A stretch of DNA of 64,000 bases from Natronosalvus caseinilyticus (lineage in GTDB: Archaea; Halobacteriota; Halobacteria; Halobacteriales; Natrialbaceae), in NCBI RefSeq assembly GCF_017357105.1, contig NZ_CP071596.1, positions 2,170,001 through 2,234,000 on the forward strand, given 5' to 3'. Made by a program: the position numbers and the translations under genes. The stretch's first letter is position 1. Each line of letters begins with the position of its first letter. Positions 4,582-41,457 of this stretch are shown one piece after another. The notes below the pieces were generated by a model. The model saw nothing but the letters and a program-made list of their open reading frames with translations, searched no databases and had not been told where the DNA came from.

Positions 4582-5847
4582 TCACTCTCCGACGTCCCGG
4601 CCGTCCCTGGCGCGGACCTCGACGTCCACGCCGTTGGGTTCGTACGCGTTCGCGGCGTAGCCTCCTTCGTTCCAGGGATACTCGTCGTTCTCGAGCGCGT
4701 CTCGCCAGACGTCGGGGTCGGATATTCGTGACGGCTGTCGACGGCCCAGGTCGTCGGTCGCGCGCGACAGCAGGGTGTGACGTCCCAGCCGGGTGTCCCA
4801 GTCGTACCGGAAGAGTCGCCACGCGCCTGCGTAGTCGGGGCCGAACAGTTCCGCGTCGTCCCAGGTCTCACCGCCGTCGGTCGAGACCTCGACGCGGTCG
4901 ACCCCATCGTCTCCCGCCCAGGCGACGCCGCGCACCTTGAGCGACTCGTCCGGTCGCACCTCGGCGGGCGACTCCCCGGATGGCGCGCCGATCAGCGACA
5001 TCACGTTCGCGTCGAACGTGTACGGATACTCGACTGCGCCCTCGAGCTGGGTCCACGTATCGTACGTCTCGACCGTCTCGTTCTCGTCGGGTTCGCTTCC
5101 ACTGGGATAGATGCGATACGAACGCTGTTGCCAGTACGCGTGCTCTCCGGGGCGCTCGAGGCTCCCCTCGGTCACCATCGAGTCCATGACGCGGAGTTCC
5201 TCGACCCACTTGACGTTGTTGACGCCGTACCAGCCGGGAACGATCAGGCGGACGGGATAGCCGTGCTCCCGTGGCAAGGGCTCGCCGTTCATCTCGTAGG
5301 CCAGCACGCAGTCGTCGAGGGCCTTCTCGAGCGGAATCGATCGGGCGAAGATGTCGTCGCCGTCCGACGGATCGCCACCGACGGTGGTGAGCCACTGTCC
5401 CTCGGATTCGGTCACGCCGTACTCGCGCAGTATCAAACTCACTGGCGTCCCCGTCCAGAAGGCAGTGGCCGCGGCCTCACAGTCCCACTGAACGCTTCCC
5501 GTCTCCGGTCGGTGCTGGCCTCGTCCGTTGCCGGCACACTCCATCGTGTGTGCGACCGCGACCGTCGGATACTTCTCCCTGATGTCGGTCATCGAAAGGG
5601 TCCCCTTAAGCCCCCCGGTGAGCGAGACGGTCCACGCGTCGGCGTCGGCGTCCGGAATATCGTTTCGATGGCAGACGAAGTGCTCCTCGATCGGTGTCAG
5701 CCAGTTCGCGAACGTGCGTCGGCTGGCGGCCCCGAGGACGGTGTACTTGTCGGCTTCGTCTCTCGTCTCCGCGACGCCGCCCGCCTTCGCCTCCACGATG
5801 GCGTCGATCTCGCGATGACGGGTGTCTCGTGGTCGTTCTGTGGGCAT
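4582..5847 (-). CDS. Sulfite oxidase-like molybdopterin oxidoreductase
   Basis: This protein has about 421 residues. The oxidoreductase molybdopterin domain contains the molybdenum-ligating cysteine in HTMECAGNGRGQ (about residue 104 from the chosen start) and the conserved EHGYPVRLIVPGWYG and VKWVEELRV segments. The C-terminal part (from about residue 280) with VEVSTDGGETW is the Mo-co dimerisation, immunoglobulin-like domain of eukaryotic-type sulfite oxidases. No heme-b5 domain and no Tat signal are present, so it is probably cytosolic and needs a separate electron acceptor. The first ATG is at 5856; I chose the second (MPTERP). Oxidation of sulfite is inferred from the family. Confidence 0.88.
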   Translation of the reverse strand: MPTERPRDTRHREIDAIVEAKAGGVAETRDEADKYTVLGAASRRTFANWLTPIEEHFVCHRNDIPDADADAWTVSLTGGLKGTLSMTDIREKYPTVAVAHTMECAGNGRGQHRPETGSVQWDCEAAATAFWTGTPVSLILREYGVTESEGQWLTTVGGDPSDGDDIFARSIPLEKALDDCVLAYEMNGEPLPREHGYPVRLIVPGWYGVNNVKWVEELRVMDSMVTEGSLERPGEHAYWQQRSYRIYPSGSEPDENETVETYDTWTQLEGAVEYPYTFDANVMSLIGAPSGESPAEVRPDESLKVRGVAWAGDDGVDRVEVSTDGGETWDDAELFGPDYAGAWRLFRYDWDTRLGRHTLLSRATDDLGRRQPSRISDPDVWRDALENDEYPWNEGGYAANAYEPNGVDVEVRARDGRDVGE

Positions 5848-5940
5848 ACATACCAAACCACCCAGCAGCGCAAAATAGCTATCACTCGGCTATCGATCGA
5901 CCGGCCGACGCGCCCCCTCGAGTCGACGACTGCGTACTGC

Positions 5941-6912
5941 TCAGGGAATCAGCACGACCTTCCCCACGCTCTTTCGGTCCTCGATGAACTGGTGGGCCTC
6001 GCTCGCGTCCTCGAGCGCGAACGTTTCGCCGACGATCACCTCGAGTTCGCCGTCGGCCAGCCCCTGGGTTAGATCCGGAATCGCCTGCATGATCCGCTTC
6101 GGATCGTGTCGAGATGCCTGCCCGAGGTGGAACCCGACGACGGACTTGTTCTCGAAGAGCAGGCGCCGGTTCTCGGCGCTCGCGGGAACCCCGCTCGCCA
6201 CGCCGTAGGTGACTAACCGCCCGAAGTGTCCGAGTGCGTCGAGACTCCGATCGAACACGTCGTCGCCGACGCTCTCGAGGACGAGGTCGACGCCCTCGCC
6301 GTCGGTGGCCTCCTCGACGGGGTCGCGGAAATCGACTTCGGTGTACTGGATCGGGTGGTCACACCCGAGGTCGGCCGCCAGCTCGAGTTTCTCCTCGATG
6401 CTCGCGGTGCCGAAGACCTCCGCGCCGGCCCGCGAGGCCAGCTGGACGGCCGCCGTGCCGACGCCACCCGCGGCGGCCTGGATGAGGACGGACTCGCCCT
6501 CCTCGAGGCCGCCCCACTCGAACAGGCAGGAGTGGGCGGTCAGGAACTGGACGGGGAAGCCGGCGGCTTCCTCGAAGCTCATTCCGTCGGGGATGGGTAA
6601 GAGCATCTGCGCGTTGGCGGTGGCGTACTCGGCATATCCGCCCCCGCCGAGCATGCCGACCACGCGGTCGCCCTCCTCGAGGTCGATCCCCTCGCCGGTA
6701 GCGTCGACGGTTCCGGCGGCTTCCATCCCGGGGACATACGGCGGTTCCGGCCCACCCGGATACACGCCGCGCCGCTGCATGACGTCCGCGAAGTTGATGC
6801 CCGCGGCCTCGACGTCGATTCTGACCTCCCCCGGGCCCGGTTGCGGAACCTCGTGCTCGGCGGTCTGGAGGACGCCACTATCACCGTACTCGTTGACCTC
6901 GATGACTCGCAT
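5941..6912 (-). CDS. NADPH:quinone oxidoreductase, zinc-less MDR family
   Basis: This is a 323-residue medium-chain dehydrogenase/reductase of the quinone oxidoreductase (Qor) type. It begins MRVIEVNEYGDSGVL and contains AGINFADVMQRRGVYPGG, the NADPH-binding segment VLIQAAAGGVGTAAVQLASRAG and a C-terminal IEDRKSVGKVVLIP, all typical of the group. The catalytic and structural zinc ligands of alcohol dehydrogenases are absent. The open frame extends further upstream, but the ATG at 6912 matches the family start. It probably reduces quinones or enones in the cytosol. It stands as a single gene. Confidence 0.9.
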   Translation of the reverse strand: MRVIEVNEYGDSGVLQTAEHEVPQPGPGEVRIDVEAAGINFADVMQRRGVYPGGPEPPYVPGMEAAGTVDATGEGIDLEEGDRVVGMLGGGGYAEYATANAQMLLPIPDGMSFEEAAGFPVQFLTAHSCLFEWGGLEEGESVLIQAAAGGVGTAAVQLASRAGAEVFGTASIEEKLELAADLGCDHPIQYTEVDFRDPVEEATDGEGVDLVLESVGDDVFDRSLDALGHFGRLVTYGVASGVPASAENRRLLFENKSVVGFHLGQASRHDPKRIMQAIPDLTQGLADGELEVIVGETFALEDASEAHQFIEDRKSVGKVVLIP

Positions 6913-6994
6913 ACCTCGTCTTCGTGACGGGTTTATATAAAGCCGAGAGAACCGGATGAAACGGCCTCGCGGTTCCCGCCGCGGGCCGAGCGGG

Positions 6995-7783
6995 TCACCC
7001 GTCTGCCGAGAGCAGTTCCGGAAGGCCGGCAATCGAATCGAGGACGTGAGTCGGTTCGTTCCGTGCACTCGAGAGGTCCGTCCTGTCACTCGCCCCCGTG
7101 AGGACGAGCGCCGTCGCCATCCCCAAGCGGACCCCCATCTCGACGTCGGTCTCGAGCCGGTCGCCGACGAGCAGGCACCGTTCGGGGACGCAGTCCATCC
7201 TCGCCGTCGCCACCTCGACCGCCGTGGGCGACGGCTTTCCGAGCACGCGGTCGAGCGATCGGCCGGTAACGCCCTCGATCGCGCCGATCATGCCGGCGGC
7301 GTCGGGAATCTCCCCATCCTCGACCGGACACGTGCGGTCGGGATTGGTCGCGACGAACAGCGTCTCGTCGTCGATGGCATCTAGTGCTAGCTGGAGCGTC
7401 TCGTAGTCGAACGACCGGTCCATCGATACGACGACGATCTCCGTCCGCCGGGGATCTTGCGTCACGGTGATGCCGGCGTCCTCGAGTTCGGCCACGAGCG
7501 GGCGTTCACCGACGACCAGTGCTGGTCGATTCGGGTGATTCGCTACGAGCCACTCCGCGGTGATTGCCGCGGAGTTGAGCACGTCCTCGTCGTCGGCCGG
7601 AATGCCGAACTCGGTCAATCGATCAGCGTACTCCGGTGGCCGCTTCGTGGGGTTGTTCGAGAGGAACAGGACGCTCGCACCGGCTGCTCGAGCGCGTTCG
7701 ACCGCGGCTGGGGCTCCAGGAACGAGTCGATCGCCCCGATAGACGGTCCCATCGAGGTCGAAAATAATGCCGTCGTAATGCAT
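6995..7783 (-). CDS. HAD family IIA sugar/organo-phosphatase at the end of the phn operon
   Basis: This 262-residue HAD hydrolase has motif I FDLDGT (nucleophile Asp9, acid Asp11), motif II LFLSNN, the lysine motif LGKPSP and motif IV GDRLETDVEMG. The cap inserted between motifs II and III makes it a NagD/AraL-type (subfamily IIA) phosphatase. It is not a phosphonatase of the PhnX type, which has a different cap and a catalytic lysine in it. It starts 18 bases after phnE2 on the same strand and is likely cotranscribed. A role in releasing phosphate from an imported organophosphate is an inference from context. Confidence 0.85.
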   Translation of the reverse strand: MHYDGIIFDLDGTVYRGDRLVPGAPAAVERARAAGASVLFLSNNPTKRPPEYADRLTEFGIPADDEDVLNSAAITAEWLVANHPNRPALVVGERPLVAELEDAGITVTQDPRRTEIVVVSMDRSFDYETLQLALDAIDDETLFVATNPDRTCPVEDGEIPDAAGMIGAIEGVTGRSLDRVLGKPSPTAVEVATARMDCVPERCLLVGDRLETDVEMGVRLGMATALVLTGASDRTDLSSARNEPTHVLDSIAGLPELLSADG

Positions 7784-7801
7784 GCGGAGGTAAAAGTGAG
7801 G

Positions 7802-8614
7802 TCAGCGCACCTTCGACCGAAGGTACGCCGAGATCAGTTCGCTGACGAGGACGACCGCGAGGATGGCGATGAGAATCGTCAGCACGCGGTGCCAGTCGAG
7901 AAAGTCGATGCTGTTCTGGAGTTCCATGCCGATGCCGCCCGCGCCGACGAAGCCGATGATCGTGCTCGAGCGGACGTTGATGTCCCAGCGGTAGACGGAC
8001 ACCCCGACGAACGCCGGCTTCACTTGCGGGACGATCCCGTACAGTAACGTCTGCGTTCTGCTCGCGCCGGTTGCGCGAACGGCCTCAACTTGCGTCGGAT
8101 TGATCTCCTCGATCTCCTCCGCGATGAGCTTGGCGACGAACCCGATCGACCGGAAGCCGACCGCCAGGACGCCGGCGAGCGCGCTCGTTCCGAACAGGAA
8201 TACGAAGATGATTGCCCAGATGATGACGTTCACTGACCGCGAGGCGACGATGAGGAACTTCCCGAGCAGGTAGGTTGCCCGGTTCGGCGTGGTGTTCTCC
8301 GCGCCGATGAACGCAACGGGGAGCGCCAGCAGGATCGCAAGGCCCGTCCCGAGCACGGCGATGTTGATTGTCTCGAGGAGCGGACCGACGATTTCGTTGG
8401 CGTACGCGGCGTCCGGCGGATACATCCGGTTGAGAAGGTCCCGGACGGATTCCGGGGCCGTCTCGACGTACTCGTACCGGACGTTGAGCGCCCGCCAGGA
8501 GATTGCGACGACGACGAACGTCGTGAGCAATCCAACGTAACGGGCGAATCGCCGCTTCCGACCTCTGGTATCCCACTCCGTCGAGGTATCGGTCACCGTC
8601 GATTGGTCGGTCAT
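7802..8614 (-). CDS. phnE: Phosphate/phosphonate ABC transporter permease
   Basis: This 270-residue membrane protein has about six hydrophobic segments. The BPD_transp_1 coupling region ATGASRTQTLLYGIVPQV and the following YRWDINVRSSTIIGFVGAGG are characteristic of PhnE permeases. It forms the membrane channel together with the second PhnE upstream, whose stop overlaps its start by four bases (ATGA). The two permeases are similar in the coupling region, so the complex is probably a heterodimer. Substrates of the family include phosphonates, phosphite and phosphate. The sequence does not say which applies. Confidence 0.9.
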   Translation of the reverse strand: MTDQSTVTDTSTEWDTRGRKRRFARYVGLLTTFVVVAISWRALNVRYEYVETAPESVRDLLNRMYPPDAAYANEIVGPLLETINIAVLGTGLAILLALPVAFIGAENTTPNRATYLLGKFLIVASRSVNVIIWAIIFVFLFGTSALAGVLAVGFRSIGFVAKLIAEEIEEINPTQVEAVRATGASRTQTLLYGIVPQVKPAFVGVSVYRWDINVRSSTIIGFVGAGGIGMELQNSIDFLDWHRVLTILIAILAVVLVSELISAYLRSKVR

Positions 8615-29975: not shown

Positions 29976-30668
29976 TTAGTCGAGATATCCGAGCACGTCG
30001 CTCCCCTCGAGATAGACGAACTCGTGTCGGTCGGCATAGGCTCGCGCGTCCGCCGGCGCGAGCGCCTCGCCAGTCCGGTCGTCGAGCATCTCACAGACGA
30101 CGACGGCGGGCGACAGGTCGGCCTCGAGTGCCAGCGCGACGCCAAGTTCGGTGTGGCCCTCGCGTTGTGCGAGGAGGTCGGGGGCGGCCCGGAGCAGGTG
30201 AACGTGACCAGGGACGCGAAACGCCTCGGCGAAGTCGGTTTCGTCCGGGTCGGCGGCGGCCTCGCCGAGCGACCGAATCGTCAGTGACCGGTCGTTGTCG
30301 GTGATCCCGGTGTAGGTGTCCCGGTGATTGACCGTCAGCGAGAACGACGAGCGCTCGTCGTAGCCCAGGTCGTGACCGGCCGTCGCCGGGTGATCGACGG
30401 CGTCGTCGTAGAACGGGAGGTCGAACGCGTCGGCGACCGCGTCCTCGAACGCGACGCAGACGAGGCCGCCAGCGTCGTTGCGCAGGCGGGAGACGGCCTC
30501 GGGCGTGACGGCGTCGGCGTGGTAGATCAGGTCGGTCTCGCCTTCGCGGTCGGCCGCGTCGTGGACGAGGATCGGCTCGCCAGCTTGCAGGCGCTCGAGT
30601 GCGACATCGACGCTCGCGGCAGTTGTCAGCGGTTCCTGGCGGGGGTTGGTGGTGTCTGATCCGTTCAT
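29976..30668 (-). CDS. ribB: 3,4-dihydroxy-2-butanone 4-phosphate synthase
   Basis: This 230-residue enzyme converts ribulose 5-phosphate to the four-carbon unit of riboflavin. It contains VHDAADREGETDLIYHAD with the acidic metal ligands, SFSLTVNHRDTYTGITDNDRS and VPGHVHLLRAA, and REGHTELGVALA near the C-terminus, all conserved in RibB. The RibA GTP cyclohydrolase domain of bacterial fusions is absent. Its ATG lies one base after the stop of the riboflavin kinase/regulator gene, so the two form an operon. Confidence 0.95.
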   Translation of the reverse strand: MNGSDTTNPRQEPLTTAASVDVALERLQAGEPILVHDAADREGETDLIYHADAVTPEAVSRLRNDAGGLVCVAFEDAVADAFDLPFYDDAVDHPATAGHDLGYDERSSFSLTVNHRDTYTGITDNDRSLTIRSLGEAAADPDETDFAEAFRVPGHVHLLRAAPDLLAQREGHTELGVALALEADLSPAVVVCEMLDDRTGEALAPADARAYADRHEFVYLEGSDVLGYLD

Positions 30669-32844: not shown

Positions 32845-33531
32845 TCACACGCTACGTCCACTAACCCGCTCGAGCACGCTCAGCGTCCCGTCGGCGTGAG
32901 CCGTCTCGAGCACCTCGTCGGCCGCCGCCTTCGCGGCATCGTCCGCATTGGCGACGGCGAAACTTCGGCCCACGGCCTCGAACGTCGAGACGTCGTTCTC
33001 GGAGTCGCCGACGGCTACGGCGTTCTCGAGGGCGAAGCCGACGTGTTCGGCCAGGCGGGCGACGCCGCGGCCCTTGCTCGTCTCCGGACTGACGACGTGG
33101 TAGGCGTAGCCGGTGTCGAGGACCTCGAGGCCGTGTTCGGCGGCCAGTTCTCGAAGAGGTCCTTCGGGCTGATCGTGATTGACAGCGACCTCGGTCTCGC
33201 GCCAGCGGTTGACGGTATCCTCGGGGCCCCAGCCGAGGTCGTAGCCGGCCTCCTGGTATTCTTGCGTGACGGCCTGGGCCGCGGCGCGGTCGGCGGTGTA
33301 GTGGACGGACTCGCCGGTGTAGACGACACCGCCGTTCTCGGCGACGACGAGTTCGGGGATCGCCGCGAAGTGACAGAGGGCGACGGGGTACGGGAACGCT
33401 TTTCCGGTGGCGACGACGACCGGGGCGTCCCACTCGAGCAGCGGGTCGAAGATGCGGGGGTCGATTCCCCACCCCTCCGGGCGGGTGAGCGTGCCGTCGA
33501 TGTCGAGGACGAGCGGCGGATCGGCGGTCAT
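32845..33531 (-). CDS. Phosphoglycolate phosphatase, archaeal type
   Basis: This 228-residue HAD phosphatase has motif I LVLDIDGTLTRP, motif II ATGKAF, the lysine in SPETSKGRGVARLAE and motif IV VAVGDSENDVSTFEA. The type IIB cap and the length match archaeal phosphoglycolate phosphatases related to sucrose-6-phosphatase, as in Thermoplasma. It removes 2-phosphoglycolate in the cytosol. It lies 76 bases upstream of tyw1 on the same strand and may share a transcript, but no functional link is obvious. Confidence 0.9.
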   Translation of the reverse strand: MTADPPLVLDIDGTLTRPEGWGIDPRIFDPLLEWDAPVVVATGKAFPYPVALCHFAAIPELVVAENGGVVYTGESVHYTADRAAAQAVTQEYQEAGYDLGWGPEDTVNRWRETEVAVNHDQPEGPLRELAAEHGLEVLDTGYAYHVVSPETSKGRGVARLAEHVGFALENAVAVGDSENDVSTFEAVGRSFAVANADDAAKAAADEVLETAHADGTLSVLERVSGRSV

Positions 33532-33726: not shown

Positions 33727-34806
33727 TCAGGGCGTCGGGACCCAGACCGTCGTCGGGAAGATGCCGAGGAAGTACGCTACGGCGACCAGAATCGTCCCGA
33801 AGACGATGGCCGCTGCAGGCGGATCCCAGTGGGTGTCGCCGTGGGCGTAGAACACCCGCTGGAAGGCTTCCCCGAACAGCGCACAGACGATCCCGAAGAC
33901 GGCGGCGACGATCAGGGCGACTTCGTTGCTGGTCCCCGCGAGAACCGCGTCGCCGCTCGCGACGACCGCGAGTGCGGCTGTCGAGGACGGGAGCGTGATA
34001 TGGTGAGTAACCGGAATTTTCTCGACGCCGCAGTTGAGAAAGACGAGGGAAGCGGCGCTAATACCGAACGCGAGGAACGGGCTCTCGGTGACGAGCGCCG
34101 TGTACCCGCCCAGGAGGCCGCCAGCCAGGCCGATCATGGCGACGTGGTCCCACTCGTACTGGTGGGGGAGCCACGGTTCGACGGCGAGACGCGAACTCTG
34201 GGCAGCTGCCGCCGCCTCCGGTTCCGTCTCTGCTCCCGCTTCCGCTTCGCCGCCGTCGGTAATCGTGCGCGTCTCCTCGCGTTCGAACGGCGTCATGTCG
34301 AAGTAGCCCGTACCGCGAACCTTTCCAATGATGCTGTAGCCCAGGATCAGTCGATGGAACAGGGCCGAGAGGACGACCCCCATTGCGATGGGATCCCAGG
34401 GCAACCCGAGCGTCCCCGAGGTCACCTGAAGGACGTACCCGAGGACGCCAAAGGCCCCGCCCACGGCGAGCACGTCGGGTTTCGTCCCGAGAGCGTAGGC
34501 GATGTTCTTCGCCTCGTGGTAGTCGAATGCGGTGTCGATGTAGCCCCGGCGAGCAGCGTAGGCCGTCGCGGCTGCCCCGCCGGCGAAGCTGATCGCCGGC
34601 GAGAACGGCGGCCCGAACGCGACGTTGTTGCGAATCGCCACGGCGTCCGAGCTGACCAACCATGATGCTTCGCCCGCGATGACCATGAACCCCGTAAAGA
34701 TGAACGCTGGGAGCGCCCCGAGGGCCGCCCCGAACGCACCGCCACCGAACGCGGCGATGAGCATCTCGAGGTCGAGCAGTGCCTCGACGAGTTCACCGAG
34801 AACCAT
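33727..34806 (-). CDS. glpK-linked polytopic membrane protein
   Basis: This 359-residue protein has about nine to ten hydrophobic segments and one hydrophilic Ala/Glu-rich loop (about residues 180-215). Small-residue motifs such as FGGGAFGAALGALPAFIFTG and GLAGGLLGGYTALV and the conserved-looking AIRNNVAFGPPFSPAISFAGG suggest a channel or carrier. No NPA motifs of aquaglyceroporins are present. It starts two bases after the glpK stop, so it is almost certainly cotranslated with glycerol kinase. I infer a glycerol uptake role; the sequence alone does not show it. Confidence 0.75.
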   Translation of the reverse strand: MVLGELVEALLDLEMLIAAFGGGAFGAALGALPAFIFTGFMVIAGEASWLVSSDAVAIRNNVAFGPPFSPAISFAGGAAATAYAARRGYIDTAFDYHEAKNIAYALGTKPDVLAVGGAFGVLGYVLQVTSGTLGLPWDPIAMGVVLSALFHRLILGYSIIGKVRGTGYFDMTPFEREETRTITDGGEAEAGAETEPEAAAAAQSSRLAVEPWLPHQYEWDHVAMIGLAGGLLGGYTALVTESPFLAFGISAASLVFLNCGVEKIPVTHHITLPSSTAALAVVASGDAVLAGTSNEVALIVAAVFGIVCALFGEAFQRVFYAHGDTHWDPPAAAIVFGTILVAVAYFLGIFPTTVWVPTP

Positions 34807-34808
34807 GG

Positions 34809-36377
34809 TCAGTCGCCTCCGTCACCGTCATCGTCACCGCCACTGTCATCGTCGGTGGCCCAGCCGAGGGAGCGCTCAATGGCGTCACTCCAGCGACCGT
34901 ACATGCGGTCGGCTTGTGCCGAATCCATCTCGGGGCTGAACTCGCGATCGACCTGCCAGTTGTCGCGCAGCCCCTCGACGTCGTCCCAGTACCCGACCGC
35001 CAGGCCGGCCGCGTAGGCCGACCCCAGGGCCGTCGTCTCGTCGACGACGGGGCGGGAGATCTCCGAGCCGATGATGTCCGACTGGAGCTGGCAGAGGTAG
35101 TTGTTCTTGACCGCACCGCCGTCGACCTTGAGGTCGCGCATCTCGATGCCCGAGTCGGCTTCCATCGCCTCGGCAACGTCCCGGGTCTGGTACGCGATGG
35201 ACTCGAGGGTCGCCCGGACGACGTGTTCCTTCCGGGTACCGCGGGTCAACCCGACGATAGTCCCGCGGGCGCGTTGGTCCCAGTGCGGGGCGCCAAGACC
35301 CGTGAACGCGGGGACGACGTAGACGCCGTCGGTCGAGTCGACGCTCCGGGCCAGTTCCGCCGTCTCGGCCGGGTCGTCGATCAGCGTCATGTCCTCGAGC
35401 CACTCGATCGCCGCGCCGGTGATGAAGATGGCGCCCTCGAGGGCGTACTGGACGGGTTCGCCGGAGCGCTGGAAGCCGATGGTCGTGAGCAGGCCGTGCT
35501 CGGACTCGACGGCCTCCTCGCCGGTGTTCATGAGGAAGAACGACCCCGTCCCGTAGGTGTTCTTGGCCTCGCCGGCGTCGAAACAGGTCTGGCCGAACAG
35601 TGCCGCCTGCTGATCGCCGAGCGCCCCCGCTACTGGAATCTCGGCCTCGAGGAAGCCGTCCGGGTCGGTCGTCCCGTAGGTGTCCTCGTCGCTCGAGGGG
35701 CGAACCTCGGGGAGCATCTCCCGGGACACGCCGAACTCCTCGAGCAACTCGTCGTCCCACTCGAGGTCGTGGATGTTGTAGAGCATCGTCCGCGAGGCGT
35801 TCGTGACCTCGGTGATGTGGTTGCCCGTGAGGTTGTAGATCAGCCAGGTGTCGATGGTCCCGAAGAGGACGTCGCCCTCGGCCGCGCGGTCCTGGATGTC
35901 CGCGGGCCGGGTACGCTCCATCTTGATCGGATCGGCATTTTCGAGGAGCCACTCGGCTTTCGTCGCCGAGAAGTAGGCGTCGGCCTCGAGGCCGGTCTTC
36001 TCGCGAATCGTTCCGACCAGACCGTCTTCCTCGAGTTGTTCGACGCGGCTGGTCGTCCGGCGATCCTGCCAGACGAGCGCGTTGTGAACCGGTTTTCCGG
36101 ACTCCGCGTCCCAGAGCAGCGTCGTCTCGCGCTGGTTGGTGACGCCGATGGCCTCGAGCTGGTCCGGGCTGATTCCGGCCTGGCCGAGCGCGCTCGTGAT
36201 CACGGACTTGGTGTTCTCCCAGATCTCCATCGGGTCGTGTTCGACCCAGCCGGGTTCCGGGTAGATCTGTTCGTGTTTCTCGTACGCGTTGGCGACGACC
36301 TGACCGCTGTGGTCGAACACCATGAATCGCGTGCCGGTCGTGCCCTGGTCTACTGCGCCGACGTATGTGTCTGTCAT
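34809..36377 (-). CDS. glpK: Glycerol kinase
   Basis: This 522-residue FGGY-family kinase phosphorylates glycerol to sn-glycerol 3-phosphate. It begins YVGAVDQGTTGTRFMVFD, the phosphate-binding start of the family, and contains NQRETTLLWD, LVWQDRRTT, AGALGDQQAALFGQ and YVVPAFTGLGAPHWD, all typical of GlpK. The tail is a Gly/Asp-rich run. It is divergent from glpABC across a 326-base regulatory region, and its product is the substrate of GlpABC. Glycerol is a major carbon source for haloarchaea because of Dunaliella. Confidence 0.97.
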   Translation of the reverse strand: MTDTYVGAVDQGTTGTRFMVFDHSGQVVANAYEKHEQIYPEPGWVEHDPMEIWENTKSVITSALGQAGISPDQLEAIGVTNQRETTLLWDAESGKPVHNALVWQDRRTTSRVEQLEEDGLVGTIREKTGLEADAYFSATKAEWLLENADPIKMERTRPADIQDRAAEGDVLFGTIDTWLIYNLTGNHITEVTNASRTMLYNIHDLEWDDELLEEFGVSREMLPEVRPSSDEDTYGTTDPDGFLEAEIPVAGALGDQQAALFGQTCFDAGEAKNTYGTGSFFLMNTGEEAVESEHGLLTTIGFQRSGEPVQYALEGAIFITGAAIEWLEDMTLIDDPAETAELARSVDSTDGVYVVPAFTGLGAPHWDQRARGTIVGLTRGTRKEHVVRATLESIAYQTRDVAEAMEADSGIEMRDLKVDGGAVKNNYLCQLQSDIIGSEISRPVVDETTALGSAYAAGLAVGYWDDVEGLRDNWQVDREFSPEMDSAQADRMYGRWSDAIERSLGWATDDDSGGDDDGDGGD

Positions 36378-36703
36378 TGGTGGTCACCCGTCGTGTCGCT
36401 CGGTTGCGAACATCTTTACCGTCGATCCGGTATTACTGATAAACAACACCAACGATCGGTATAAACATTGCCCAATATGTAATTCTGAATTTATGTATTT
36501 CTCGAGGTAAACTCTGCGAATCAAACTATTCGTACCAATATACGTCGAGTAGACGAGTTTACGGGCCGTTTCTCGTCCGTGCTCGACTGACCCACGGGAG
36601 ATCCTGACACGACAACTAACTATCTGGAAAAACGGTGATTGTTATGGGTGTTGGCTGACCACCGATAAAATAATGGCGCGTCGCCACGTCGTTGAGTCAA
36701 CGG
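36378..36703. promoter_or_regulatory. Divergent promoter region of glpK and glpABC
   Basis: The centre is AT-rich. For glpA a GATAAAATAA box (36664-36673) lies about 30 bases before the ATG. For glpK a GTTTATCAG box (36437-36445, minus strand) lies about 60 bases before the ATG. GGTGTTG occurs upstream of each box in the orientation of its gene (36647-36653 plus, 36444-36450 minus) and might be a shared regulator site. This last point is weak. Confidence 0.55.
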
Positions 36704-38476
36704 ATGGCATACGATACGGAGGTACTCGTCGTCGGCGGCGGCTCCACCGGCTGTGGCATCGCCCGAGACCTGGCGATGCGCGGCCTCGAGGTGACGCTCG
36801 TCGAACGAGGAAACCTCACACACGGGACGACCGGGCGGATGCACGGCCTGCTCCACAGCGGGGGCCGCTACGCCGTGTCGGACCAGGCCAGCGCGAAGGA
36901 GTGCATCGAGGAGAACGAGGTCCTCCGCGACATCGCCGGCCACTGCGTCGAGATGACCGGCGGACTGTTCGTCCAGCGACCGGAGGATCCCGACGACTAC
37001 TTCCAGGAAAAACTGCGCGGGTGCAGGGCGTGTGACATCCCCGCACGCGCCCTCTCGGGGCGGGAAGCCCGCGAAATCGAACCCTACCTGGCGAAGGACG
37101 TCGAGCGGGCGATCCAGGTGCCCGACGGTGCGATCGATCCCTTCAGGCTCTGCGTCGCGAACGCGATCGACGCCGAATCTTACGGGGCGCGCGTCGAAAC
37201 CCACGCCGAGGTGATCGACCTCCTCCGCGAGGGCGACGACGTCTACGGCGTCGAGGTTCGCCACGACTCCGGCCCCGGAAAGCGGACTCACCGGGCACCC
37301 GGAACGACCGAGGAGATCACCGCCGAGTACGTCGTCAACGCGACCGGCGCGTGGGCCGGGCAGATCGGCGAGATGGCCGACCTCGAGGTCGCCGTCCGCC
37401 CCTCGAAGGGCGTCATGACCATCATGAACGTCCGCCAGGTCGACACGGTCATCAACCGCTGTCGACCGAAGGGCGACGCCGACATCGTCGTACCCCACGA
37501 GACGACGGCCATCCTCGGCACCACGGACGAGGAAGTCGAAGACCCCGACGACTACCCGGAGGCTGGCTGGGAGGTCGACCTGATGATCGACACCCTCTCG
37601 GAACTGGTGCCGATCCTCTCGGAGGCCCGCACGATCCGCTCGTTCTGGGGGGTTCGACCACTGTACGAACCGCCGGGAACCGGGACCGAAGATCCCACAG
37701 ACATCACCCGGGATTTCTTCCTCCTCGACCACGCCGAGCGCGATGGCGTCTCGGGAATCACCAGCATCGTCGGCGGCAAGTTCACTACCTACCGAATGAT
37801 GGCCGAGCAGATCTCCGATCACGTCTGCGAAAAGCTCGGCCATCGGGCTACCTGCAAAACTGCGAGCGAACCGCTCCCGGGAAGCGAGAACCTCGAGACC
37901 CTCGAGGACGCGATGGACGACTTCGGCCTGCGCTCGCCGATCGCCCGGCGGAGCAAACAGCGCCTCGGGAGTCGTTCACAGGAGGTGCTCGGGACCACCG
38001 ACCCGAACCCGGTCGTCTGCAACTGCGAGGGGGTCACGCGAGCCGAGATCCAGGACGCCATCGAGCAGTCCGGCTCGGACCTGAACGCCGTGCGTATCCG
38101 GACCCGGGCGTCGATGGGCAACTGCCAGGGCGGCTTCTGCTGTCACGTCATGGCAAACGAGCTCCACCCCGAGTACGACGAGCCGACGGCACGAGCCGCC
38201 TACGACGAACTCTTCCAGGAGCGCTGGAAGGGCGAACGCCACGCCCTCTGGGGCGAACAGCTCTCCCAGGCGATGCTCACCTACGCGCTCCACGCGACGA
38301 CGTTCAACGCTGACGGCGATCCGGCTCGAGTCGATGGCGACCAGTCTGTCGACTTCGGCGCGTTCGACCGCGGACGGCCGGACTCGGCTCGAGGGGCCAC
38401 CGGCGGCGTAGTGACTGACGGCGGTCCTCGAGACTTCCAGCGGCGCGGCGAAGACCCGGACGGAGGTGATCGCTGA
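36704..38476 (+). CDS. glpA: Anaerobic-type glycerol-3-phosphate dehydrogenase subunit A
   Basis: This is a protein of about 590 residues. The N-terminal FAD domain has [20 protein letters not shown], followed by [15 protein letters not shown] and other GlpA/GlpD segments, and oxidises glycerol 3-phosphate to dihydroxyacetone phosphate. The C-terminal region carries a BFD-like [2Fe-2S] domain with [13 protein letters not shown] and [14 protein letters not shown] four codons upstream (36692) is possible, but the ATG is preferred. It is followed by glpB after one base, with GGAGGTGAT just inside its end as the ribosome site for glpB. Confidence 0.95.
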
Positions 38477-38477
38477 G

Positions 38478-39788
38478 ATGGCTATCACCGACGACGTGCT
38501 CGTCATCGGGGGCGGACTCGCCGGCGCCACGGCAGCCCTCGCCGCGGCCGAACGGGGCGTCCAGGTTCGCCTGCTCACCTACAAGCAGAGCACGCTTCGA
38601 CACGCTAGCGGGCTCATCGACGTGCTCGGGTACGCGCCTAGTGGAAAGGGACCACTCGCCGACCCCTTCGACACACTCGAGACACTCCCGGAGGGCCACC
38701 CCTACGAGCGCGTGGGTAGCGATGCGGTTCGCGAGGCGCTGCTCTTCTTCGACGCGATCGTCGGGGATGCCTACGCGGGCGAGCACACGGACGCCAACGC
38801 GCTTGTCCCTACCTCGAGCGGCGCGATCAAGCCCACCGCCCGCTACCCCGCCGGTGTCGCGCCCGGGCTCGCGAGCGATCCGCGAGAGACGCTGCTCGTC
38901 GGCTTCGAAACCCTCCCCGAGTTCGACGCCCCGCTCGCTGCGGCCCACCTCGAAGAGACGGGCGCTCCGTTCGAGGCTCGCGGCGTCACCCTCTCGTTCC
39001 CGGGCATCCGGCGCGACGACGCGAAGGTGACCCGGTACGCACACCTGCTCGACCGCGACGAGACCGTCGACGTCGGCCGGGGCGAGACGTCCGCGCGCGC
39101 CGCGCTAGCCGCAATCGTTCGCGATCAACTCGAGGGCGAGTCCCGCGTGGGCTTCCCGCCGATTCTCGGCGACGACAATCACGCGACCGTCCGCCGGGAC
39201 CTTGAGGAGCGCCTCGGCGTCGACGTGTTCGAGGTGCCCTCGGGGCCACCGAGCCTGCCCGGAATGCGCCTCGAGGATCGCCTGTACGACGCGCTCGATG
39301 ACACCGGCGTTCGGGTCACGACGGGGGTCCCGGTGGTCGACTACGAGGGGGCGGACAATGGTCGCAGCGGCGCCTCGAGCACGAAGCGAATCGAACACGT
39401 CCTCGTCGACCGCAAGGGCCGAGATGTCCCCTACCGCGCCGACGAGTACGTTCTCGCCACCGGCGGTCTCGTCGGCAAGGGGGTTCGATCCGAGCGCGAG
39501 CGGGTCTTCGAACCCATCTTCGACTGCCACGTCGAGGCGTCACCGGATCGCTACGACTGGTTCGACGGCGACGCCTTCGGCGACCACCCGTTCGCCCGAT
39601 TCGGCGTGACCGTCGACCGCGAGTTACGCCCGCTCGATACCGAGGGCGACCTCGAATTCGCGAACCTGCGGGCGGCCGGTGCCGTCCTCTCGGGCTACGA
39701 CTTCGCCGCCGAGAAGTCCGGTAGCGGCGTCTCGCTCGCGACGGGGTTCGTCGCGGGCGACCGGGCCGGATCGGAGGTGCGCGGATGA
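38478..39788 (+). CDS. glpB: Anaerobic-type glycerol-3-phosphate dehydrogenase subunit B
   Basis: This 436-residue flavoprotein subunit has the dinucleotide-binding start DDVLVIGGGLAGATAALAAAE and HASGLIDVLGY, both characteristic of GlpB, and a C-terminal GSGVSLATGFVAGDRAG. It receives electrons from GlpA and passes them to GlpC at the membrane. The ATG at 38478 is preceded by GGAGGTGAT. Its stop overlaps the start of a small frame (ATGA) that fills the gap to glpC. Confidence 0.93.
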   Translation: MAITDDVLVIGGGLAGATAALAAAERGVQVRLLTYKQSTLRHASGLIDVLGYAPSGKGPLADPFDTLETLPEGHPYERVGSDAVREALLFFDAIVGDAYAGEHTDANALVPTSSGAIKPTARYPAGVAPGLASDPRETLLVGFETLPEFDAPLAAAHLEETGAPFEARGVTLSFPGIRRDDAKVTRYAHLLDRDETVDVGRGETSARAALAAIVRDQLEGESRVGFPPILGDDNHATVRRDLEERLGVDVFEVPSGPPSLPGMRLEDRLYDALDDTGVRVTTGVPVVDYEGADNGRSGASSTKRIEHVLVDRKGRDVPYRADEYVLATGGLVGKGVRSERERVFEPIFDCHVEASPDRYDWFDGDAFGDHPFARFGVTVDRELRPLDTEGDLEFANLRAAGAVLSGYDFAAEKSGSGVSLATGFVAGDRAGSEVRG

Positions 39789-40018
39789 GTCGAGCGATTC
39801 GTTCGCGTGCTAGTCCGGACGCGCTGCACGGGCTGGACGCGGCCTCGAGTGGCCTCTCGAGTGTGACCTCGAACAGTGCGTGCGAGAGTCAGCGACCGAA
39901 TCGACGTTCGACCGAGACCTGCGGCGGAAGCGGTTTTCAGACCCAGGCTCAGAACCAGACCCTGGCACACATTCAGCGACAGACCCAGATCCAGATTCAC
40001 ATGACGGTGATTCAATGA
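39785..40018 (+). CDS. Questionable 77-codon gene between glpB and glpC
   Basis: This frame begins with the ATG that overlaps the glpB stop and ends with a TGA overlapping the glpC ATG, so it joins the two by ATGA overlaps on both sides. Codons in the second half have high GC at third positions. The product is basic and Gln-rich at the end (QTQAQNQ, QRQTQIQIH), which is unusual in a haloarchaeon. The competing reading is an acidic in-frame extension of GlpC rich in Asp-Pro. Either the frame is real, or it serves to keep ribosomes moving, or it is chance. Confidence 0.3.
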   Translation: MSRAIRSRASPDALHGLDAASSGLSSVTSNSACESQRPNRRSTETCGGSGFQTQAQNQTLAHIQRQTQIQIHMTVIQ

Positions 40019-41457
40019 GCGACGCAACGCGACCGACCGACGACCACGTCCCGGGCGACGACGAGTTCGACCCCATCGAGGTCTTTCCGGAGGCCGACGA
40101 GATGGACCTCCGACCGGGCGCGGACAACTGCTACAAGTGCTCGACGTGCGACACCAACTGCCCGGTCGCCGAGGTCGACGACGAGTTCCCCGGACCGAAG
40201 TTCCAGGGACCGGAGCAGTGGCGGCTGAAACGCCAGTCTGACCACGACGTCGACGACTCGATCATGAAGTGTTCGAACTGCATGCGCTGTGACCACGCCT
40301 GTCCCTCGGAAGTGCCGCTCTCTCAGATGCACAACAGCGCTCGCGGGGAGTACGTCGACGAGCGGATGAGCAAGCGATCGCTCGAGTACTGGCGAAACCG
40401 GCTGCTCTCGAACTACCGGCTGATGGCCCACCTCGGAAGCAAGGTCCCCCGGTTGACGAACTTCGTGATGGGGCTCACGCTCACCAGCGTGTTCAACGAG
40501 AAGGTCCTCGGCATTACGAGCGAACGCGAGTTCCCCGAGTTCGCGACCGAAACCTTCCGGGAGTGGTGGCGAGCACGGGGCGGGAGCGACGCCTCGAGAG
40601 AACGAGCACAGGCGGCTCGGGAGGAACGCGGCGAGTCCGGCGCCGAAAAGCGGGTAGCCTACTTCCACGGCTGCTACTCGAACTACAACACGCCCGAGGT
40701 CGGCAAGGCGCTCGTGCGGGTGTACGAACACTTCGGTTACGAAGTCGTGGTACCCGAGCAGCGCTGTTCGGGGACGCCGATGTTCGCGAACGGCATGCTC
40801 GACGACGCCCGTCGGGCCGCCGACACCAACGTTTCCGAACTCGCGGCCGCCATCGAGGACGGCGCCGACGTGATCGCCTCCTGCACCTCGTGTTCGATGT
40901 CCCTTCGCCAGGAGTACCCCGAACTGTTCGACATCGACGGCGTCGACGACGTCTCGAGCAACACCTGGGAGGGCCTGGAGTACCTCCGCGTTCACGAGGA
41001 CCTCGAGGGCGAACTCGAAGGGACACGTGCTGACGTGCCAAACCTGGCCTACCACGTGCCGTGTCACGCCCGAAATCAGGGGCTGGACGGGCAGGCCATC
41101 GAGGTGCTGACGACCATCGATGGCGTCGAGGCCCAGGACGTGGGCGAGTCCTGTTCCGGAATTTCGGGCACCTACGGCTGGAAGGAAGAGCACTACGAGA
41201 CCTCGATGCAGATCGGCGAGGAGATGTTCGAGCACATGGAGCGCGCCGACGGCGACACCGGCCTCACCGAGTGTCCGACCTGTGCGATGCAGATGGAACA
41301 CGGGACCGGATACGAGATCAAACACCCACTCGAGGTGCTCGAAGCGGCGCTCGTTCCGAACTCTCCAGGGACCGAGCGAGCGGCGACGGACGGTGGCATC
41401 GACGAGACGGTCGGACCGAACCGCGAAGGCCAGGACGAGCCGTTCGGGGCGAACTGA
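40015..41457 (+). CDS. glpC: Anaerobic-type glycerol-3-phosphate dehydrogenase subunit C
   Basis: This protein of about 480 residues links GlpAB to the membrane quinone pool. The N-terminus has two [4Fe-4S] ferredoxin motifs, CYKCSTCDTNCP and CSNCMRCDHACP. Two CCG domains follow with PEQRCSGTPMFANG, ASCTSCSMSLRQEYPE, HVPCHARNQG, ESCSGISGTYG and CPTCAMQMEHG. The frame is open upstream to 39880, but MSDATRPTDD is the natural start. The TGA stop overlaps the ATG of the Orc-like gene by one base, so that gene belongs to the same operon. Confidence 0.94.
   Translation: MSDATRPTDDHVPGDDEFDPIEVFPEADEMDLRPGADNCYKCSTCDTNCPVAEVDDEFPGPKFQGPEQWRLKRQSDHDVDDSIMKCSNCMRCDHACPSEVPLSQMHNSARGEYVDERMSKRSLEYWRNRLLSNYRLMAHLGSKVPRLTNFVMGLTLTSVFNEKVLGITSEREFPEFATETFREWWRARGGSDASRERAQAAREERGESGAEKRVAYFHGCYSNYNTPEVGKALVRVYEHFGYEVVVPEQRCSGTPMFANGMLDDARRAADTNVSELAAAIEDGADVIASCTSCSMSLRQEYPELFDIDGVDDVSSNTWEGLEYLRVHEDLEGELEGTRADVPNLAYHVPCHARNQGLDGQAIEVLTTIDGVEAQDVGESCSGISGTYGWKEEHYETSMQIGEEMFEHMERADGDTGLTECPTCAMQMEHGTGYEIKHPLEVLEAALVPNSPGTERAATDGGIDETVGPNREGQDEPFGAN

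Follow-up and report, generated by a model that had tools for sequence, protein, structure and literature searches.

Algal glycerol is described as an important nutrient of haloarchaea (PMC3102087), and the route by which they take it up is unsettled in the literature; one genome paper assumes uptake by diffusion (PMC1544339). The closest described system is a family of membrane proteins encoded next to haloarchaeal glpK (rrnAC0550; HQ1732A / HQ_RS03760; NJ7G_1712), which Anderson et al., 2011 (PMC3102087) predicted to be glycerol transporters, a statement repeated in PMC3402447. For Haloquadratum, HQ1732A has been described as transcribed with glpK at above-average levels and as possibly acting in glycerol uptake (PMC5496347); HQ_RS03760 was reported to be highly expressed in winter together with glpK, and a PTS-like role was suggested for it (PMC9684190). 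Taken together, these papers (PMC3102087, PMC5496347, PMC9684190, PMC3402447) place the family next to glpK in haloarchaea, with bacterial homologues among glycerol genes, and put a gene of the aquaporin family, MIP, in its stead in Halomicrobium mukohataei. In the literature searched, which took in few subscription papers, no functional test of the glpK-adjacent family was found.

MEM, as we call the 359-amino-acid membrane protein considered here, agrees with the family description of Anderson et al., 2011 in being polytopic, encoded beside a haloarchaeal glpK and not a MIP; the assignment was made from position and from the published descriptions rather than by aligning the named proteins. 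Homologues from Haloarcula (loci L039, L045, L049 and L054) were among those collected. Rawls 2011 and Sherwood 2009 reportedly deal with the glycerol genes of H. volcanii, including the glpK-adjacent MEM neighbour.

The glpK-MEM locus

In the window -- the whole stretch of 64,000 nucleotides analysed -- MEM and glpK form a two-gene unit on the minus strand, and genes of glpABC type lie on the plus strand beyond glpK:

33727-34806, minus: MEM, 359-aa polytopic membrane protein, putative glycerol facilitator (ORF with ATG start; no Pfam or NCBIfam match; AlphaFold2 model, pLDDT 94.1)
34342-34770, minus: first internal repeat of MEM, residues 13-155 (DSSP on the model; hhalign with shuffle controls)
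Minus: helices of the first repeat, residues 13-29, 31-51, 53-63, 70-86, 110-132 and 139-155 (DSSP on the model)
33769-34152, minus: second internal repeat of MEM, residues 219-346 (DSSP on the model; hhalign with shuffle controls)
Minus: helices of the second repeat, residues 219-240, 245-252/254-258, 268-282, 294-320 and 329-346 (DSSP on the model)
33988-34017, minus: conserved segment I-P-V-T-H-H-I-T-L-P, MEM residues 264-273 (74-row alignment)
33811-33840, minus: conserved segment G-D-T-H-W-D-P-P-A-A, MEM residues 323-332 (alignment)
34809-36377, minus: glpK, glycerol kinase, leading the two-gene unit that it forms with MEM (ORF; NCBIfam TIGR01311 above cut-off)
36692-38476, plus: glpA-type glycerol-3-phosphate dehydrogenase subunit, divergent from glpK (ORF; named from place and family features)
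38466-39788, plus: glpB-type subunit (ORF; named from place and family features)
39880-41457, plus: glpC-type iron-sulfur subunit (NCBIfam glycerol-3-phosphate dehydrogenase subunit C above cut-off)

The kinase scores 710 bits against the NCBIfam glycerol kinase equivalog TIGR01311 (cut-off 590), and exactly two bases, 34807-34808, separate its stop from the ATG of MEM, just as the preliminary description had it. The ORFs at 36692-38476 and 38466-39788 we take to be glpA and glpB from their family features and gene place; the true start of the glpC-type ORF probably lies further in. No Rfam element reaches the gathering score between window positions 30000 and 42000.

MEM itself is not a chance ORF, since 73 other rows align with the window protein at 42-78% identity. 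Neither Pfam nor NCBIfam gives it a match at E up to 1, and it has no relative among the sequences of solved structures, where a profile search returned three chance-level matches. The source genome (G000; 4.2 Mb, two contigs) carries a single MEM copy and, over its whole length, no MIP gene (PF00230 unmatched), so that the earlier remark that no other glycerol transporter is visible extends, for the MIP family, to the entire genome. The NPA motifs found lacking in the window protein are likewise absent from all 104 extracted MEM copies, window copy included, and membership in the aquaporins was rejected on this ground together with the lack of a PF00230 match and of any profile-profile similarity between MEM and MIP.

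That MEM is a PTS-type permease, an EIIC-like unit acting with GlpK, has been suggested for Haloquadratum from a PRK10712 match (PMC9684190), and an HPr gene does lie downstream of MEM in Haloferax marinum (L012). Neither Pfam nor NCBIfam, however, shows a PTS (EIIC) family match at E up to 1, which rules the PTS permeases out as a family assignment for MEM, and GlpK is by family an ordinary glycerol kinase; we regard this reading as very improbable. A PTS permease is also absent among the fold matches listed for MEM, an absence that excludes nothing alone.

Downstream of MEM, at 32845-33531, lies a HAD protein that resembles a diverged phosphoglycolate phosphatase (140.8 bits, against an NCBIfam cut-off of 198 bits). 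A homologue follows MEM at distances of 61 to 4778 bases in 21 of 46 comparable loci. Kinship with the HAD gene beside the MEM copy of Agrococcus was considered and dropped as weak (pairwise E 3e-4).

Internal duplication and predicted fold

The AlphaFold2 model of MEM, built from the 74-row alignment, has a mean pLDDT of 94.1 and a pTM of 0.93, and it contains about ten membrane-length helices along with short broken ones, in agreement with the roughly ten membrane segments first counted from the sequence. MEM is internally duplicated, consisting of two homologous halves: these are related in sequence with an hhalign score of 43.95 (probability 90.8%), as against best scores of 19.4 among 60 column-shuffled controls and 36.0 among 60 block-shuffled ones. 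Residues P265, T267, H268 and H269 in the first conserved segment, and T325, H326, D328, P329, P330 and A331 in the second, are invariant over the 74 rows; D138-P-I-A is the first-repeat counterpart of G-D-T-H-W-D-P-P-A-A. The conserved P-V-T-H-H and G-D-T-H-x-D-P-P segments, with D138-P-I-A, would be the best candidates for the permeation path.

When the window model was compared with known structures by VIA-align, the first 13 rows were all urea transporters (Z 7.3-8.2, 181-196 residues, 4.4-5.5 A), followed by Amt/Rh rows (Z 5.2-6.2), between which stood a single unrelated row, PsaBC at 5.4; all other listed rows had Z 4.6 or less. A second model, of an actinobacterial MEM 42% identical to the window protein (pLDDT 88.1), again gave urea transporters in its first 13 rows (Z 8.0-8.5) and then Amt/Rh (Z 5.8-6.6), two TRIC rows among them; the two models share most alignment rows and so are not fully independent, and their Z-scores lie in the tool's range for what is possibly a mere common arrangement. 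At E 0.001 or better, Foldseek listed nothing from the PDB with either model. The comparison with known channel folds proposed at the outset came out divided, with urea transporters leading in VIA-align and nothing significant in Foldseek. By hhalign, MEM was linked neither to urea transporters (probability 0.16%, with three UT rows only) nor to Amt (0.23%, with 25 haloarchaeal Amt loci), a kinship test of little power, as UT and Amt are unlinked by it too. The urea transporter family PF03253 was unmatched in 59 haloarchaea, an uninformative absence because the control was likewise nowhere matched. Taken from the models, a fold of the urea-transporter/Amt type appears rather likely for MEM.

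These comparisons bear also on whether MEM might be an ion-coupled secondary active importer, concentrating glycerol against its gradient, instead of a channel. Within the predicted helices or next to them, several charged or titratable residues do not vary (H268, H269, E313, R317, H322, H326, D328, D138 and R152), which would suit such a carrier, as would Foldseek's weak top rows, mostly MFS carriers, though their TM-scores are about 0.2. VIA, in contrast, puts channel families first for both models, and MEM and MIP genes, the latter encoding channels, can stand in for each other; active import is considered unlikely.

Distribution, gene neighbourhood and exchange with MIP genes

Gene counts were made over 391 haloarchaeal genomes, at E 1e-5 for the MEM family and E 1e-150 for glpK. 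The MEM family was found in 303 of them, glpK in 340 and a MIP gene in 20. MEM and glpK occur together in 294 genomes, MEM alone in nine, glpK alone in 46 and neither in 42 (Fisher p about 4e-23, kinship between genomes being ignored). A profile search of the 46 glpK-only genomes found no full MEM copy in them; it did find a 33-column stretch of MEM directly after glpK in G319 and one of 29 columns, away from glpK, in G308.

The gene neighbourhood was scanned in one genome per species, with up to 5 kb viewed on each side, giving 73 loci with 74 MEM copies, of which three lie at contig edges and 71 are scorable. The check on conservation of the glpK neighbourhood that had been proposed gave the following: in 49 of the 71, MEM begins no more than 150 bases beyond the 3' end of glpK and shares its strand, with gaps of -4 to 129 bases, mostly 0-4. 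Eight copies, in records of Rhodothermota or Bacteroidota, are found 1.8-3.4 kb downstream from glpK; one, in L007, is a second copy 2.6 kb downstream from it, behind the first; two actinobacterial copies are divergent from glpK; one (L011) has glpK on the opposite strand of the locus; and two (L046, L047) precede a glpABC set. For the remaining eight (L039, L044, L045, L052 and L058-L061) the locus contains no glp gene. Orthologues regularly found away from glpK had been named in the preliminary description as what would speak against its reading, and these eight go part of the way there, as does genome G029, which carries MEM and no detectable glpK. The G029 copy, at L169 5330-6448, is intact, and the search for glpK there was made at E 1e-150. 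In G181, MEM and glpK are more than 500 kb apart.

Two of the loci that lack glp genes (L058 2845-6979 and L061 5004-7366) have MEM beside zinc alcohol dehydrogenase genes, L058 holding a GMC oxidoreductase besides, and these copies may serve another alcohol. At L012 4920-8517, in Haloferax marinum, an HPr gene (above cut-off for NF041319) comes next after MEM; further ORFs there resemble dihydroxyacetone kinase subunits, a resemblance seen without a family search, and the genes for glycerol and for dihydroxyacetone may be clustered together.

Directly after glpK, in the position usual for MEM, three haloarchaea (G059, G114 and G201) have a MIP gene, spaced by a few bases in G059 and G114, neither of which has a match to the MEM family. 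G201 keeps a mere fragment of MEM, residues 244-359, some 4.3 kb beyond the MIP gene, and has apparently been caught during replacement of MEM by MIP (this locus is L173, features 1025-1369 and 5693-7987). Two others, G325 and G123, have two glpK genes each, one followed by MEM and the other by MIP. As far as genome comparison goes, this displacement is the best functional evidence for the proposed role of MEM. In 11 of the 20 genomes that have a MIP gene, its place was viewed: it adjoins glpK in five and, with flanks of between 0.7 and 5 kb in view, is not beside it in six (G015, G052, G206, G259, G276 and G310). MIP genes are somewhat commoner where MEM is missing (6/46 glpK genomes, vs 13/294 where it is present; p 0.03). 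Near two MIP genes away from glpK (L107, L109) there is a hydrophobic ORF whose start reads, by eye, as an ACR3-type arsenite-efflux permease, and some haloarchaeal MIP genes may serve arsenic and not glycerol.

Among 14 glpK loci viewed from MEM-less genomes, an MFS gene follows glpK in two (L118, L120), one holds a MEM fragment, and the rest have no transporter gene after glpK. Since most of the loci viewed have no following transporter, and 46 of 340 glpK genomes lack MEM, the glycerol pathway can apparently run without it.

Two bacterial groups also carry MEM beside glycerol genes. The Rhodothermota-type copies make up a single branch of the tree (100/99), which groups with Halostella and a related MAG (99/96); because of this grouping, a single transfer from haloarchaea to these bacteria is likely. 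The gene order in one locus (L040) is glpK, a GlpA-like gene, an outer-membrane porin (Porin_4), MEM and Dak1 (dihydroxyacetone kinase), as would suit uptake across both an outer and an inner membrane. The actinobacterial copies (four rows) form a separate long branch, and MEM occurs in 3 of 199 genomes of the family concerned. MEM is divergent from a glpK in three actinobacterial genomes, and Agrococcus and Schumannella have a MIP-glpK pair elsewhere as well. A plasmid of Microbacterium sp. J1-1 (L138 4919-9849) carries DsrE, epoxide hydrolase, haloalcohol dehalogenase, glpK and MEM in one run, with two bases between glpK and MEM and insertion-sequence transposase genes flanking both sides. 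Epoxide hydrolases and haloalcohol dehalogenases can yield glycerol from chloropropanols, and the run looks like a mobile chloropropanol-to-glycerol cassette.

Some of these settings could also be those of a protein that moves a small polyol akin to glycerol, or its product (dihydroxyacetone, propanediol, chloropropanediol), or that exports an overflow product: the dihydroxyacetone kinase gene nearby in L040, the HPr gene after MEM in Haloferax L012, the dehalogenase and epoxide hydrolase genes of the Microbacterium plasmid, and the L058 and L061 copies with their neighbouring alcohol dehydrogenase genes. Yet the most constant neighbour of MEM is glpK, and the gene that replaces it there belongs to the aquaglyceroporin family, which makes another substrate decidedly unlikely.

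Proposed role and known systems

MEM is a supported candidate for a glycerol permeation protein. We put at about three in four the probability that it is the protein by which glycerol crosses the membrane in the haloarchaeal pathway, a glycerol facilitator encoded with glycerol kinase; genome co-occurrence, the position after glpK, replacement by MIP and the glycerol context of the bacterial copies all argue for this role. On the same four grounds the dedicated uptake protein of a new family proposed in the preliminary description stands as a candidate. The idea itself is not new, a transporter role being already in print as a prediction (Anderson et al., 2011); added here are the fold lead, the internal duplication, the cases of MIP displacement and the plasmid cassette.

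Most likely MEM would conduct glycerol, and do so passively. Glycerol would enter down its gradient through MEM, GlpK would trap it as glycerol-3-phosphate, and GlpABC would oxidise the latter; facilitated diffusion with trapping by GlpK is proposed because of the GlpF-GlpK analogy; the gene neighbourhood of a channel would look no different from that of an active carrier, of an exporter or of a partner of GlpK. Roughly evenly balanced for and against is a broader proposal: that MEM is a glycerol channel from a family of its own, built on a UT/Amt-like architecture. It would then be a second structural answer to glycerol conduction, distinct from the aquaporin fold, and could change places with GlpF after glpK; most haloarchaea that live on glycerol would use it, halophilic Rhodothermota-type bacteria would have received it, and the actinobacterial copies would be a related branch. 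Were the glycerol role of MEM confirmed, the family would fill a gap in uptake for 294 of the 391 genomes searched, an unnamed family would gain a function, and a non-aquaporin glycerol channel would be added. The natural swaps of MEM and GlpF make the role directly testable by complementation.

Among known systems, the GlpF aquaglyceroporins (MIP, PF00230) are those whose job MEM probably does, in the same slot after glpK in G059, G114 and G201 and after a second glpK in G325 and G123. MEM differs from them in having no NPA motifs (0/104 copies) and no PF00230 match, and in its about ten helices in two repeats, where MIP proteins have six helices plus two half-helices. The urea transporters (UT/SLC14, PF03253) are the top fold matches of both MEM models, over 171-196 residues at 4.1-5.5 A, and like MEM have two internally similar halves, though MEM does not match PF03253; Amt/Rh (PF00909) is the second-ranking fold group for both models (Z 5.2-6.6), again with no family match in MEM. 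With the glpK-adjacent family of Anderson et al., 2011 MEM shares its position beside haloarchaeal glpK and bacterial homologues that occur with glycerol genes; the published accounts, in the parts available, give no fold, internal repeat or function test for that family, and for MEM a duplicated architecture and a predicted fold can now be set beside them.
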